Assembly: GCF_027579695.1 (NCBI RefSeq)
Contig: NC_083583.1
Location: forward strand, 21,190,099-21,254,098
Reading direction: 5' to 3'
DNA: 64,000 bases
Source of the DNA: Neoarius graeffei
Lineage: Eukaryota; Chordata; Actinopteri; Siluriformes; Ariidae
Numbering within the stretch: position 1 is the stretch's first letter; every line of letters starts with the position of its first letter. A program made the position numbers and the translations under genes. The notes below the pieces were generated by a model that had not been told where the DNA came from, made no database searches, and worked only from the letters and a program-made list of their open reading frames with translations. Shown piece by piece: positions 8,901 to 14,900 of the stretch.

Positions 8901-11900
8901 TAATAAGATACTGTTTACTGTGATACGAGTACCTCCTCCAAGCTGAAAAGCACTCCACCGATTGGAGCACCAAATGCCACAGACACTCCAGCAGCCGCAG
9001 CAGCCGATAAAACCTATGGATCACACAAACACAGCATGCAATAGTGGCGTTATTCCCAGTCATGGGTCATACAACATTAGTAACTGCAGGATCAACACAA
9101 CATCTTTTAAACAATCATAATATCTTCATAAACCAGCAGTGGTTTCACCTCTCTACGTTTGCCTTCATTCCTGCTATATTTAGAGAAAAGGCTGCAGAAC
9201 AGGTTTCCACAGCAGCAGGCCACGTGCACCAATGGGCCTTCTTTTCCCAGACTGAGACCGGATGAGACAGCCAGCACCAGAGTGACCGTCTTAATCAGCA
9301 GGGTCCACTTCCCCAGGTAACCTCGGATTATAAACCCACTCAGGATTGTCTTAATCTGGCAAACAAAAGACACAAATTCAGTTCAGTTTAAATGATGTAC
9401 AATATATAAACACATTTAGATTTTTTTTTAATGAGGAAGAAAATCTTCCACTGTCACAGCCTGTCATCTATTTTACTGAACAGAGAAAAAATGATCTACT
9501 CTTGCACCATTTTTAGAGTTTATATTTGCCATACGTTAATTTGCCTGAGATAATCAATTTCCTGTTAAAAAATTTCTGAGATATGACCATAAAAGCACAT
9601 TTGTGTTTTGATTATTGTATAGAACAACAGCACTTACTTCTGGTATTCCTGATCCACAGGCATAGGGAGCAAACACTCGCACCAGAGACACAGCAAGAAA
9701 GGAGAAGAACAGTGCCCACAGCACATACAGGAAGTAATTTAACACATAAGCTCCAGCACCCTACAATACACAAGAGAAAACATAATTCAGCAATCCACTG
9801 AATTTCTGCACGGTCAATTTAAAGTAGCTCGCACTACACACTACTACATAATACAGCCTGACCAATATAAAACCAGCTGATATTAAAGTTCCATGAGGTG
9901 ATCTGTATCACTGGAAATCAATTCAATTACATTAAAAAAAAAAGCACACAAAGCAGCTTGGGCGGCACGGTGGTGTAGTGGTTAGCGCTGTCGCCTCACA
10001 GCAAGAAGGTCCGGGTTCGAGCCCCGTGGCCGGCGAGGGCCTTTCTGTGCGGAGTTTGCATGTTCTCCCCATGTCCGCGTGGGTTTACTCTGGGTGCTCC
10101 GGTTTCCCCCACAGTCCAAAGACATGCAGGTTAGGCTAACTGGTGACTCTAAATTGACCGTAGGTGTGAGTGTGAATGGTTGTCGGTGTCTATGTGTCGG
10201 CCCTGTGATGACCTGGCGACTTGTCCAGGATGTACCCCGCCTTTCGCCCGTAGTCAACTGGGATAGGCTCCAGCTTGCCTGCGACCCTGTAGAACAGGAT
10301 AAAGCGGATAGAGATAATGAGATGAGATGAGACAAAGCAGCTTTACAAAACTCTGGATGGAGATTTAGATCCCTAATGAGCAAACCAAAGGCAAGAAAAA
10401 AACTCTCTGAGATGACATGAAGATATAACCTTGAGAAGAACCAAACTCAAAAGGGAACCCATCTTCTTCTGGATGACACAAGACAATGGGATTATAAATC
10501 AGTATACAGTCATATAGAGAAAAACAAACAGTACTAAATGTAATGAAAGGATGTTTGTGAATGTTTGGGATAATCATATTGTTAATAGGAATCCTGGGAA
10601 AGAACAAAAGACAGACAGATAAATATTTATGACTATTAGAAGGTATACGTCTATAGTACCAAGGTGAGCTTATCCACTGAAACAGGAAGGTAAGTTTTAG
10701 GTGTAAATTGTTTTAGAGTCTTTAGACTATGCAATGTGAGACAATATGAGGTGAAATTCACATCAATCAAGCAAAAGTAATGGCTCTTTAAAATGTCTAG
10801 GTGACAAAAATAACTAAATCAAAGACTATAGGGTGTAATCACTCACTGCTCATGAACTGAGGCACTTGCCATTAAATCATAACAGATATTTTAACCCAAT
10901 TAATGCAATTTGTGGGCCTTTCACACCCTTTCTATTCTGTTTCACCATATTGACAATTGTCAGAGCTTGAGTCTGAGCTTTTCTGAGGGCAGCACGGTGG
11001 TGTAAGTGGTTAGCACAGTCGCCTCACAGCAAGAAGGTTCTGGGTTCGAGCCCAGTGGGGGCCTTTCTGTGTGGAGTTTGCATGTTCTCCCCATGTCTGT
11101 GTGGGTTCCCTCCTGGTTTCCCCCAAAGATATGCAGTTAGGTTACTATGGGACAGCCTTGGCTTTTTTTTGCACCATTCTGTGTAAACTCTAGAGACTGT
11201 TGTGTGTGAAAACCCCAGGAGATGAGCAGTTTCTGAAATACTCAAACCAGTCCATCTGGCACCAACAGCCATGCCACAGTGAAAGTCACAGAGATCACAA
11301 TTTTTCCCCATTGTAATGTTTGAAGTGAACATTAAGATGTCTGTGAAGATTCTCAGGTCATCCAGGTCATGGTAAACTGTGGGTGGTAAAAGAGAGCAAC
11401 TGGACTTGCTTGAAGATTCTTGAAGACGTTTCACCGCTCATCCGAAAGGCTTCTTCAGTTCTGTCTGACTGGTAGGAAGCATCAGGTATTTATCCTCTCA
11501 TGGATGAAAAGCTCATCTAAGGGGTCATTGAGTCATCCTGTTGGTGTGGGTCACTGGGGGCTGGTGGTGAACAGCCTCGAGAGTCGTTAGGATGATCAAT
11601 GGATTGCCCGTTAGGGTGATCAATGGAATGCTGATTCTCTCTGTCCTGTGCGTCACTGAAAACAGCTGGGTTTTGGTGTGCATTCAGTTGTCTGGGAAGT
11701 GTGCCAAGGACTGCATTGTAGGTGGCTGATAAATGATGTCTTAGACCCCCACCTCTGCTCAGTGATGGCTGATCCAGGTTGACAAAAATGGCTTCTTTAA
11801 CTCCTCGCTCATACCAACGATCCTCTCTGGCTAAAATGCGTACGTTGCAATCCTGAAATGAGTGTCCTTTGTTGTTAAGATGAAGGTAGACAGCAGAGTC

Positions 11901-14900
11901 CTGGCCTGAGGAACTGGCTCTCCTGTGTTGAGCCATGCGCCTGTGAAGCGGTTGTTTTGTCTTCCCAATATACGAGTCCGTGCATTCCTCACTGCACTGA
12001 ATGGCATACACTACGTTGTCCTGTTTGTGTCTGGGTATTCTGTCCTTAGGGTGGACCAGTTTCTGCTTCAGAGTGTTACTGGGTCTGAAATGTACCGGAA
12101 TGTTGTGTTTGTAGAAGATCCTCCTGAGTTTCTCAGATAGACCAGAAATGTAGGGAATGACAATGTTCTTGCATTTGTTCCTGTTATCCTCCTTGTCCGT
12201 TCTGTTCCTTTTTCTGCTCTTGAGGAAAAACCAGTTGGGATACCCGCAGTTCTGAAGTGCTTTCTTGATGTGATTCTGCTCCTTCTCTTTTCCCTCTATC
12301 ATTGCAGGGATATTCTGAGCCCTGTGTTGCAAGGTCCTAATGACCCCCAATTTGTGTTCCAGTGGGTGGTGAGAGTCAAAGAGTAGGTACTGGTCTGTGT
12401 GTGTGGGTTTCCAGTAGACCTCGATGCTCAGGCTTCTGTCTTGTCTAATGTGTACATCACAATCCAAGAAGGCTAGATTATTCCCACTGACGTCCTCCCG
12501 AGTTAAGTTGATGTTAATATCTTCTGCATTGATGTGCTCAGAGAAGGCTTCCACCTCATGGGTTTTGATTTTAACCCAGGTGTCATCCACATATCTGAAC
12601 CAGTGGCTGGGAGCAACTCCTGAAAAAGTGGTGAAAGCTTTATGTTCCACTTCCTCCATGTAAAGATTGGTCACAATAGGGGATACCGGTGAGCCCATGG
12701 CGCATCCATGCTTCTGTCTGTAGAAACTTTCATTAAACTGGAAATAAGTGGTAGTCAGGCAGAGGTCAAGCAGGGTGCAAATCTGGTCTGTGGTGAAAAC
12801 CTGCATTCCCACCACAGAAGCAGTTGAATCTGTTAGAAAACGACTCCTTCGAGACAGCACCTTATTGGATAGAACGAACCTCACCACAGACCAGATTTGC
12901 ACCCTGCTTGACCTCTGCCTGACTACCACTTATTTCCAGTTTAATGAAAGTTTCTACAGACAGAAGCATGGATGCGCCATGGGCTCACTGGTATCCCCTA
13001 TTGTGGCCAATCTTTACATGGAGGAAGTGGAACATAAAGCTTTCACCACTTTTTCAGGAGTTGCTCCCAGCCACTGGTTCAGATATGTGGATGACACCTG
13101 GGTTAAAATCAAAACCCATGAGGTGGAAACCTTCTCTAAGCACATAAATGCAGTAGATATTAACATCAACTTCACTCGGGAGGACGTCAGTGGGAATAAT
13201 CTAGCCTTCTTGGATTGTGATGTACACATTAGACAAGACAGAAGCCTGAGCATCGAGGTCTACCGGAAACCCACACACACAGACCAGTACCTACTCTTTG
13301 ACTCTCACCACCCACTGGAACACAAATTGGGGGTCATTAGGACCTTGCAACACAGGGCTCAGAATATCCCTGCAATGATAAAGGGAAAAGAGAAGGAGCA
13401 GAATCACATCAAGAAAGCACTTCAGAACTGCGGGTATCCCAACTGGTTTTTCCTCAAAAGCAGAAAAAGGAACAGAACGGACAAGGAGGATAACAGGAAC
13501 AAACGCAAGAACATTGTCATTCCCTACATTTCTGGTCTATCTGAGAAACTCAGGAGGATCTTCTACAAACACAACATTCCGGTACATTTCAGACCCAGTA
13601 ACACTCTGAAGCAGAAACTGGTCCACCCTAAGGACAGAATACCCAGACACAAACAGGACAACGTAGTGTATGCCATTCAGTGCAGTAAGGAATGCACGGA
13701 CTCGTATATTGGGAAGACAAAACAACCGCTTCACAGGCGCATGGCTCAACACAGGAGAGCCAGTTCCTCAGGCCAGGACTCTGCTGTCTACCTTCATCTT
13801 AACAACAAAGGACACTCATTTCAGGATTGCAACGTACGCATTTTAGCCAGAGAGGATCGTTGGTATGAGCGAGGAGTTAAAGAAGCCATTTTTGTCAACC
13901 TGGAACGGCCATCACTGAACAGAGGTGGGGATCTAAGACATCATTTATCAGCCACCTACAATGCAGTCCTTGGCACACTTCCCAGACAACTGAATGCACA
14001 CCAAAACCCAGCTGTTTTCAGTGACACACAGGAGGACAGAGAGAATCAGCATTCCACTGATCACCCTAACGGGCAATCCATTGATCATCCTAATGACTCT
14101 CGAGGCCGTTCACAACCAGCCCCCAGTGACCCACACCAACAGGATGACTCAATGACCCCTTAGATGAGCTTTTCATCCATGAGAGGATAAATACCTGATG
14201 CTCCCTACCAGTCAGACAGAACTGAAGAAGCCTTTCGGATGAGAGGTGAAACGTCTTCAAGAATCTTCAAGCAAGTCCAGCTGCTCTCTTTTACCACCCA
14301 CAAGTGAACATTAACTGAAGCTCTTGATTTGTGTCTGCATGATTTTATGCACTATGCTGCTGTCAAGGTATAGGCTGATTAGAGAACTGCATAAAACAGC
14401 AGGTGTGTGGGTGTAGCTAATAAAATGGCCGGTCAGTGTATGAAATTACAGGATATAGGCTGATATTATCCGAATTTTTTGTTCATGGGCATTTTATTAA
14501 ACAGTAGATGAGTGTCAGCTTGTGTCCTCCCCTACCTCAGTGTGTCCTGTCATCAACTCGGCCCATTTCTGCCACTGAGGACATTTGTCCCTGTCGGCAA
14601 ACGTAGTCTCGTTGGATGTCCAGCAGCACTGCTCATGGCTGTACCAGAATGCAGATAGACAAACTCCCTCCTTCAGGTCCGTCATCCAGTCCACAGCCAG
14701 GTCTATCACTCCAGCCAATGTGCCTGAGGCAGAAGGAAGAGAATAATCACTCTGACCATAAGCCAATCAGTACTGACCAATCCCATATGAAGCCACTGAG
14801 TTACAGTATGTACCTGACAGTAGTCCGATAAGCAGCATGACCACCCATCCTGACCAAGCATCCAGTAGGCTCTTTACAAACTCCCAGATAGATTCCTTCC

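Follow-up and report, generated by a model that had tools for sequence, protein, structure and literature searches.

How do two copies of one retroelement come to lie head to head within a single target duplication? The question is raised by the window, the stretch of 64,000 nucleotides of the Neoarius graeffei genome analysed here, in which positions 11323-14314 hold two 5'-truncated copies of a Penelope-like element (PLE) with their 3' ends outward, both enclosed by one 13-bp target site duplication (TSD; Table 1). The duplicated sequence, AAGTGAACATTAA, occurs twice on the + strand of the whole window, at 11323 and 14302, exactly bordering the unit. The two arms are unlike at their 3' ends, a 43-nt tail (11336-11378) being present on the minus arm only. 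Their 5' ends lie 82 element positions apart (R1859 versus R1777), and 24 of 1419 aligned columns differ (1.69%), which makes the insertion fairly recent, at ~0.85% per arm, provided that the arms were identical at birth.

Table 1. Features of the head-to-head unit and of its host repeat (positions of the window; R, positions of the reference element).
Feature	Positions	Strand	Comparison
Left TSD copy, 13 bp, AAGTGAACATTAA	11323..11335		
Right TSD copy, 13 bp	14302..14314		
Tailed arm, 5'-truncated PLE, 3' end leftward, R1859 to end plus tail	11336..12796	-	
Tail of minus arm, 43 nt past the AC-rich end ...ACCACCCAC; final C of CCCAC at 11379	11336..11378	-	
ORF, element portion, tailed arm: C-terminal RT part (YVDD) and GIY-YIG-like endonuclease	11517..12796	-	
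Head-to-head junction, 2 nt belonging to neither arm	12797..12798		
Untailed arm, 5'-truncated PLE, 3' end rightward, ending ...CTTTTACCACCCAC, R1777 to 3280	12799..14301	+	
ORF, element portion, untailed arm: RT (YVDD) and GIY-YIG-like	12799..14163	+	
Dispersed host repeat, left part, as far as aligned to 54541-54783	11172..11322		joined flanks
Dispersed host repeat, right part	14315..14402		joined flanks
Host-repeat relative, uninterrupted, spanning the insertion point (empty-site homologue)	54541..54783		72.6% over 252
Second uninterrupted host-repeat relative	42859..43048	-	77.6% over 196

When joined, the flanks of the unit align without a break to 54541-54783 and 43048-42859 in the window and to a third uninterrupted relative (L016 6849-6581, 78.4%), and the host repeat is therefore continuous across the site. 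A foldback artefact of assembly was rejected, because the arms are 1.7% apart, their 3' ends are unlike and the site is uninterrupted in the relatives of the host repeat. Folding of the sequence around the junction gave nothing readable as a hairpin bringing R1777 and R1859 together. An earlier note on this DNA had described truncated PLE copies with the reverse transcriptase (RT) motif YVDD, head to head and tails outward, flanked by a 13-bp duplication within a continuous host remnant, and coordinates, translation and the three relatives bear this out. Its claims that both frames are open, that the nearly identical arms mark a recent event and that the 5' ends differ by about 90 bp agree with the values given here; the unlike 3' ends are not among its observations. 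The arm alignment that it proposed gave the divergence of 1.69%, and its central claim of a single integration is supported by the one TSD, the uninterrupted homologues, the sister relation of the arms (bootstrap 100) and the same architecture in other dimers, for which it had suggested a search.

Judged by its sequence, the element behind the unit is most likely an endonuclease-bearing PLE. The stop-to-stop ORFs of the two arms are open over 470 and 471 aa, of which the first ~44 and ~17 codons, respectively, read antisense through the opposite arm. RVT_1 (Pfam) is matched at 32.3 and 32.0 bits, above the cut-off of 29.6, and YVDD is present in the translation of both arms; GIY-YIG (Pfam) scores 19.3 and 19.5 bits (E 0.0014 and 0.0012), under the cut-off of 22.6, and Y...YIG is visible in the translation. 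Fuller copies have a pseudo-LTR (pLTR), as in L012, where the 3' region R2741-3317 is repeated upstream of the ORF at 93.9%, and in L073; the window copies, which are 5'-truncated, show none. The 3' tail of this family, ~40 nt long, matches the optional 30-40 nt tail of PLEs. Searches for Rfam hammerheads, which are reported in the pLTR of other PLEs, returned no match at E≤1 in window 11300-14350 or at E≤5 in L012 1400-5000; the hammerhead is taken as a common rather than a defining feature of PLEs, and membership of the class stands.

The structure is common in its PLE family and not an exception, since 13 of the 20 best relatives examined are tails-out dimers. In 39 independent dimers both 3' ends could be read: 22 were picked regardless of tails, 13 were the best matches to a tail-containing query and 4 were reached via one known tailed end. 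Exactly one arm is tailed (~40 nt) in all 39, and the other ends at an AC-rich site, ~40 nt short of the tailed end (39/39). Dimers with one 3' end unread or unfound lie outside this set (L042, L014, L040, L037, L041, L043, L047, L057, L069, L070, L071, L072, L074, L075 and L093/L094). L042, which is tail-like at both visible ends, is a possible exception to the rule; one of these ends belongs to an internal pLTR that continues into the ORF, and the real 3' end was not found. Genome-wide, an exact tail start follows the exact AC-rich end at 1396 of 3063 places, a ratio of tailed to untailed near 1:1. An exact TSD repeat of at least 12 bp encloses 33 of the 39 dimers, most commonly 13 bp long, and is lacking in the other 6, among them L020 with only 4 bp. 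Among the first 100 of the 3063 places, 27 end pairs lie within 5 kb of each other (26 tails-out, 0 tails-in and 1 direct), 16 of the 26 being a single amplified unit. The first 100 of the 1396 tailed places contain no tails-out pair within 12 kb, and L010 and L016 have no partner arm within the 9.9 kb examined of each. Earlier publications describe PLEs arranged head to head, the optional tail and the extension of both strands in vitro; a strict one-tail rule was not met with in those parts of the PLE literature that were within reach.

The two arms of one dimer tend to come from a common source, and some shorter dimers are without such a sign. Sister arms were recovered in all five dimers that could be tested in a tree, namely the window (UFBoot 100) and four others (100, 99, 85 and 64, the last being weak). 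Over the 18 dimers with ~170 or more shared columns, to which this comparison was confined, both arms have rare variants in common at 3.01/kb, compared with 0.16/kb in 276 control pairs, a ~19-fold excess. For the window the figure is 6 against 0.2 expected from the control pairs, and given these 6 variants both window cDNAs derive from one source element, by way of one RNA or sibling RNAs. Different source copies had been expected at first, as the partner was not the best match of the window arm, and the rare variants and the tree reversed this for the window. Between the window arms the differences seem neutral, with 18 nonsynonymous and 3 synonymous changes (pN/pS 1.59, versus 0.42 between loci), and those of L021 and L011 less so (pooled 49 N:22 S; p=0.03 versus neutrality, p=0.11 versus the between-loci ratio).

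Other dimers are less uniform. Among the 11 dimers whose arms share 400 columns or more, only 5 (the window, L017, L020, L027 and L029) have arms that are each other's nearest; in L015, L021 and L028 one arm or both have many others closer to them than the partner, and L013, L015, L024, L025 and L035 (5 of the 18) have no rare variant in common. Given these observations and the less neutral differences in L021 and L011, it may be that two sources contributed to some dimers. A common source could also be imitated by gene conversion between the arms, and inverted repeats are known to convert. On a rival reading, both strands were primed on RNAs of different source copies, some arm pairs being homogenised later within the palindrome. 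The non-nearest partners and the dimers without shared rare variants would fit this reading, which we nevertheless consider unlikely: the differences between the window arms are spread along the arm with no long converted blocks (by eye), their N:S ratio is neutral, and the arms are sisters in all five dimers placed in the tree.

Where the arms end at the junction bears on how they were made. In 13 of 27 dimers it is the untailed arm that extends further, its excess over the tailed one being greater than 40 positions in 9 of those 13, and in L023, L024 and L030 the junction holds an inverted piece of 43-169 nt drawn from beside the 5' end of the opposite arm. The 5' ends lie close together in the window and in L020 (47 positions), which hinted at a shared RNA 5' end, but of the 7 dimers in which each arm exceeds 600 bp only 2 show such closeness.

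Twin priming in the manner of LINE-1, in which the second strand of the target primes at an internal position of the one RNA and gives an inverted 5' part, would account for an inversion from one RNA with one TSD. Its expected product, however, consists of non-overlapping parts with one true 3' end, whereas the window arms both hold the same 3' region, overlap over the 1419 aligned columns and both end at defined start sites, which leaves this explanation extremely improbable. We give just as little credence to two separate insertions, the second into or beside the first, even if the available text on an Anolis PLE suggests that AT-rich DNA, its own pLTR included, may be nicked by such an element (PMC11167929). 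The single 13-bp duplication round both arms, the uninterrupted homologues of the host repeat, the sister relation of the window arms with support of 100, the excess of tails-out over tails-in neighbours (with the amplified unit counted in) and the one tail per pair in 39/39 all argue against it, and for the window the shared TSD and shared variants refute it.

Self-priming, the 2013 hypothesis for rotifer Penelope, holds that the end of an antisense template or of the first cDNA folds back and primes synthesis on itself, the second arm being copied from the first; the accessible part of PMC3846280 proposes it for head-to-head PLEs with palindromic junctions. It would explain the one-source arms of the window and four other dimers, and the inverted junction pieces of L023, L024 and L030 are what a short fold-back would yield. 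A copied arm, however, cannot carry a tail absent from its template, nor can it outreach that template in the 5' direction, yet the untailed arm is so often the longer; the copy should also share the 3' end of the original, and in 39/39 dimers these ends differ. Self-priming is thereby contradicted for whole arms and could at most act at the junction; as an explanation of the dimers we judge it very unlikely.

What we propose instead, and hold to be quite probable, is two-strand target priming: a staggered cut, reverse transcription primed by both 3' ends at two start sites on RNA from one source, and end joining. A complex of RT and endonuclease would nick the target twice, 13 bp apart, leaving protruding 3' ends, as the duplication suggests; the order of the nicks and a protein dimer are things that we infer. 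Each 3' end would prime reverse transcription of element RNA, and the cDNAs would grow towards each other with the RNA 3' ends outward. On one strand synthesis would begin at the distal start site and yield a tail, and on the other at the AC-rich site ~40 nt upstream, giving none. In long-armed dimers at least, both templates would stem from a single source element, whether as one RNA that is copied a second time, as two units within a transcript or as a pair of sibling RNAs in a dimeric particle. Each cDNA would halt at its own point, so that either arm can be longer, and end joining would then unite the two cDNA ends, in keeping with the junction types seen: microhomology, small filler or short jumps between templates. 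The earlier note had the second strand primed on, or jumping to, another RNA. It had the right kind of event, since the outer ends suggest that both strands were primed on RNA at two start sites; the 6 shared rare variants speak against RNA of a different copy, and a jump is not needed for the outer ends.

In L018, apparently a single copy, 9 bases, AACTGTGGG, come after the TSD GACTGAGGAATGTA, and their reverse complement matches the untailed 3' end, CCCACAGTT, exactly. A tentative extension, on balance somewhat doubtful, is that double-strand target priming is the obligatory route for the PLE family of the window, with each insertion beginning as two cDNAs made from one-source RNA by a two-fold complex, each half of which has its own start site, and that 'single' copies are dimers with one arm of a few bases. 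The one-tail rule and the other features of the dimers together suggest an asymmetric two-fold complex, open to structural search.

Drosophila virilis Penelope encodes RT and GIY-YIG and has pseudo-LTRs and an optional extension of 30-40 bp, a description that the present family resembles in its RT, its pseudo-LTR and its optional tail, and perhaps in its GIY-YIG-like part. LINE-1 twin priming, which is occasional rather than general, has the two strands of the target priming on element RNA within a single event, and the inverted parts of one copy are non-overlapping; the dimers would share with it the priming of both strands in a single event, unlike it in that their arms overlap. The endonuclease-containing Penelope of Adineta vaga, as described in the available sections of PMC3846280, forms head-to-head inverted copies, some within one TSD of 8-10 bp, with palindromes where the inverted copies meet; that paper treats the tail as optional and ascribes the structure to self-priming on an antisense template. 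Head-to-head copies within one TSD are common to both systems, whereas here the tail is on exactly one arm, the TSD is mostly 13 bp and the arm lengths count against self-priming. For Poseidon of Anolis carolinensis (PAc), the accessible text of PMC11167929 reports a protein, predicted to be a dimer, that cleaves and extends both DNA strands in vitro on a template requiring the first 172 nt of the ORF. It has two adjacent internal start sites, the interval being the 'tail' and one site lying in an AC-rich stem loop. The single tail and AC-rich ends of the dimers resemble these start sites, about one tail apart, and the two-strand extension proposed here would be a further likeness. That in vitro work, as far as its accessible text goes, does not treat head-to-head genomic copies and finds the same start sites on top and bottom strands, so that it does not predict the strict strand asymmetry. 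The same 2024 paper remarks that relatively little is known of PLE transposition (PMC11167929), and the recurring dimer pattern hints at how this poorly understood class inserts. Together, the single tail per dimer, a stagger of mostly 13 bp, arms of one source and arm lengths that vary freely amount to a genomic test, repeatable on any genome rich in PLEs; its outcome favours priming on both target strands, with two start sites, and counts against self-priming of whole arms, the published reading of head-to-head PLEs.

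The unit at 11323–14314 consists of two 5'-truncated copies (arms) of a Penelope-like element (PLE), lying head to head with their 3' ends outward ("tails-out"). An earlier note had claimed a target-site duplication (TSD) around the whole unit, open frames in both arms, and a host repeat continuous across it, and all three claims were borne out. The sequence AAGTGAACATTAA has no third occurrence on the plus strand of the window besides the two flanking copies. ORFs are open in each arm, with RVT_1 above the Pfam cut-off in both and a weak GIY-YIG match. The flanks, joined over one TSD copy, align without interruption to window 54541–54783 and 43048–42859 and to positions 6849–6581 of L016, another locus of the same family; the unit was therefore inserted into a dispersed repeat. 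At about 26935–27245 lies another, older pair of short PLE 3' ends, also tails-out, that matches the main one at 82–86%; its right end is tailed, its left end is decayed, and a search for a target duplication around it revealed no clear one.

Features of the tails-out PLE dimer in the window
Feature	Positions	Strand	Basis
Left TSD copy, AAGTGAACATTAA	11323–11335		exact match
Tailed arm, PLE copy	11336–12796	minus	
Untailed arm, PLE copy	12799–14301	plus	
Right TSD copy, AAGTGAACATTAA	14302–14314		exact match

At the outer ends, the minus arm continues beyond the AC-rich ...ACCACCCAC end for 43 nt (the tail), and the plus arm stops at that end. The earlier note had proposed searching the same genome for further tails-out dimers, tabulating their target duplications and junctions, and measuring the divergence of the two arms. 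The genome (2.34 Gb in 38 contigs, with the window on C15) yielded 39 independent dimers for which both 3' ends were read, each with exactly one tailed arm. The 3' terminus of the tailed arm always falls within ...CACAGAC (or a variant) or a few bases farther on, and that of the untailed arm lies no more than a few bases from CCCAC or CCCAT.

These dimers were gathered in several ways. A one-arm query including the tail gave 4925 candidates, and two of the best 40 scored places were the window's own arms. Among the remaining 38, 20 were examined, and 13 of these had a second, inverted copy at the 5' side whose 3' end points outward, and both 3' ends could be read. The other seven comprised a partner fragment (L014), a 9-base partner (L018), three complex loci (L012, L019, and L022), and two loci (L010 and L016) where no partner was found in 9.9 kb of each. 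Because the 20 were the best matches to a tail-bearing query, position-ordered samples were added. An exact search for a 35-base pattern close to the 3' end gave 1633 matches, and the first 100 of them, all on contig C1, paired within 5 kb as tails-out in eight cases, as direct in one, and as tails-in in none. Each tails-out pair was inspected along with the first 20 isolated places, followed later by 18 more regions on C1, one on C8, and the ends of further pairs. The AC-rich end has 3063 exact matches, and the first 100 of these included 27 neighboring-end pairs within 5 kb: 26 tails-out, none tails-in, and one direct, the latter being both pseudo-LTRs (pLTRs) of one fuller copy (L073). Sixteen of the 26 represent one amplified short dimer, entered as a single unit in our dimer counts. 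The other ten were all traced: nine have one tail, of which L045 and L053 had been counted earlier and L049/80 and L082/81 represent a single insertion that was duplicated; L042 is the tenth.

The total of 39 is thus made up of 14 (window included), 8, 5 (amplified unit once), 2 (L058 and L067/68), and 10 (L076, L044/77, L078/79, L049/80, L083/84, L073/85, L086, L087/88, L089/90, and L091/92). Thirteen came from the tail-bearing query, and L086, L087/88, L089/90, and L091/92 were selected by one end known to be tailed. The remaining 22 were picked on position or orientation alone, or by the earlier note; if tails were assigned independently, 22 mixed pairs out of 22 would have a chance of at most 0.5^22 = 2e-7. 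The exact tail start follows 1396 of the 3063 exact AC-rich ends genome-wide, near one half, a figure that misses mutated tails, includes internal pLTR–ORF junctions, and is weighted in both numbers by the amplified unit. None of the first 100 of the 1396 tailed places belongs to a tails-out pair within 12 kb with both ends tailed. L042 could be an exception: both visible ends carry tail-like sequence, one running on into the ORF like an internal pLTR, and a further 3.6 kb (L095) did not reveal its true 3' end.

Several loci deserve separate description. The amplified dimer (C1; L046, L048, L050–L052, L054–L056, and L059–L066), with ends ~138 bp apart, is embedded in another dispersed repeat and was multiplied with it, giving 16 pairs among the first 100 listed places. 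L049/L080 and L081/L082, ~2 Mb apart on C1, have a dimer insertion and its near flanks in common, the host segment probably having been duplicated after insertion. The only tails-in neighbors in the lists examined, C1:120514766 (+) and 120515569 (−), known by coordinates only, are probably two separate insertions, since both are tailed with different tail sub-types. A further old, short tails-out pair, outside the 39, adjoins the main one at L023 (5652–5855, one orientation), with alignment ends at element reference positions R3279 and R3322, one arm tailed and one not. L012 and L014 carry ~700–820 bp insertions at the same element position, about R1208–1210, possibly inherited from a source copy. 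Several PLE arms (L040, L043, L049, and L075) are interrupted by mutually similar inserts whose ends read like GGGCCYTRTCCACACG; by resemblance these are putative DNA transposons.

Between the outer flanks, 33 of the 39 dimers have an exact repeat of 12 bp or more (24/27 and 9/12 in two sets), and the longest such repeat most commonly measures 13 bp (18/27 in the first set, a count that moves by one where the last tail base is shared). Short exact repeats were found at L020 (4 bp), L053 (7), L026 (10), L044/77 (7), L086 (9), and L087/88 (10). With 25 sites turned to put the tailed arm on the right, the nick priming the untailed arm is preceded by T in 15 and followed by G in 15 and then T in 17; these preferences hint that the side given the tail may be set by the target itself. 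At the head-to-head junction, the arms overlap by 1–10 nt in 8 of 27 dimers and are separated by 1–17 nt in 16, by 40 nt in L024, and by 719 bp or more of other sequence in L020 and L025. By eye, the fillers of L036 and L030 are repeats of nearby arm sequence, and L023, L024, and L030 contain an inverted 43–169 nt piece originating beside the other arm's 5' end. The joint looks like end joining with templated filler and perhaps short fold-backs, and any joining enzyme would be a guess.

Both the single tail and the source of the two arms bear on the mechanism. In a tree of 30 arms (1422 columns), the arms are sisters in all five dimers with both arms included, with support of 100 for the window, 100 for L020, 99 for L017, 85 for L011, and only 64 for L021. 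Rare variants, present in at most one other arm, are common to both arms at 3.01 per kb in 18 dimers, compared to 0.16 per kb for 276 pairs combined at random from separate loci; the window arms have six in 1419 columns, and L013, L015, L024, L025, and L035 have none. Changes between the window arms, 18 of them nonsynonymous and 3 synonymous, are scattered along the arm, and the resulting pN/pS of 1.59 (0.42 between loci) fits the expectation for neutral change since insertion. Gene conversion between arms could also raise their likeness. That the arms derive from RNAs of different source copies appears improbable, but by plain distance the partner is nearest on both sides in only 5 of 11 dimers with at least 400 common columns (window, L017, L020, L027, and L029) and not in the other six, and several short dimers have dozens of other arms nearer than the partner. 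These distances led us to weight a two-source origin slightly up and two-strand priming from one source, obligatory or not, slightly down. Together with the five dimers without a common rare variant and the pN/pS ratios of L021 (0.54) and L011 (0.66), they indicate that some dimers may have two sources, or that short arms make the test too weak.

For head-to-head Penelope copies, self-priming on an antisense template has been proposed (PMC3846280). A self-copied arm, however, can neither extend past its template nor carry a tail absent from it. The untailed arm reaches farther in 13 of 27 mapped dimers and the tailed arm in 14, the ranking of L023, L024, and L030 including their extra junction pieces. 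Of the 13 dimers with the longer untailed arm, nine (window, L011, L020, L021, L023, L025, L032, L034, and L036) have it reaching over 40 positions farther, and in the other four the excess is 2–15 positions. Self-priming of whole arms was rejected because the untailed arm is often longer and only one arm is tailed.

We consider it probable that these dimers are instead the product of two-strand target priming at two start sites on one source, as Anolis-like chemistry would leave. After a 13-bp staggered cut, each strand would be extended on RNA from a single source, the two strands using different start sites; the template could be a single RNA, two RNAs, or two units within a single transcript. 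At L018 (6804–6826, one orientation), an apparently single copy has a 14-bp TSD and, on its 5' side, no more than 9 bases of an untailed 3' end in inverted orientation. Two-strand priming may even be obligatory for this PLE, single copies being dimers with one minimal arm, a suggestion about which we are slightly more doubtful than confident.

Published work already describes head-to-head inverted copies, the TSDs that surround them, and a tail that is "optionally present" on one of the inverted pLTRs (PMC3846280), and a curation guide mentions inverted pLTRs and 3' extensions (PMC8969392). In the titles, abstract openings, and some fuller texts covered, we met neither the one-tail rule, nor same-source arms, nor two-strand priming as the cause of dimers; older Penelope papers may contain part of this. 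A purified PLE protein of Anolis cuts both DNA strands and extends each of them, a property its authors set against R2 and LINE-1; reverse transcription begins at two neighboring internal sites, of which one lies in an AC-rich stem loop, the genomic "tail" being the stretch between the two (PMC11167929). The same study saw no strand difference in start site for the Anolis PLE (PMC11167929), whereas the present family strictly pairs one tailed with one untailed arm, and this strict pairing is therefore either new information or a property of the present family.
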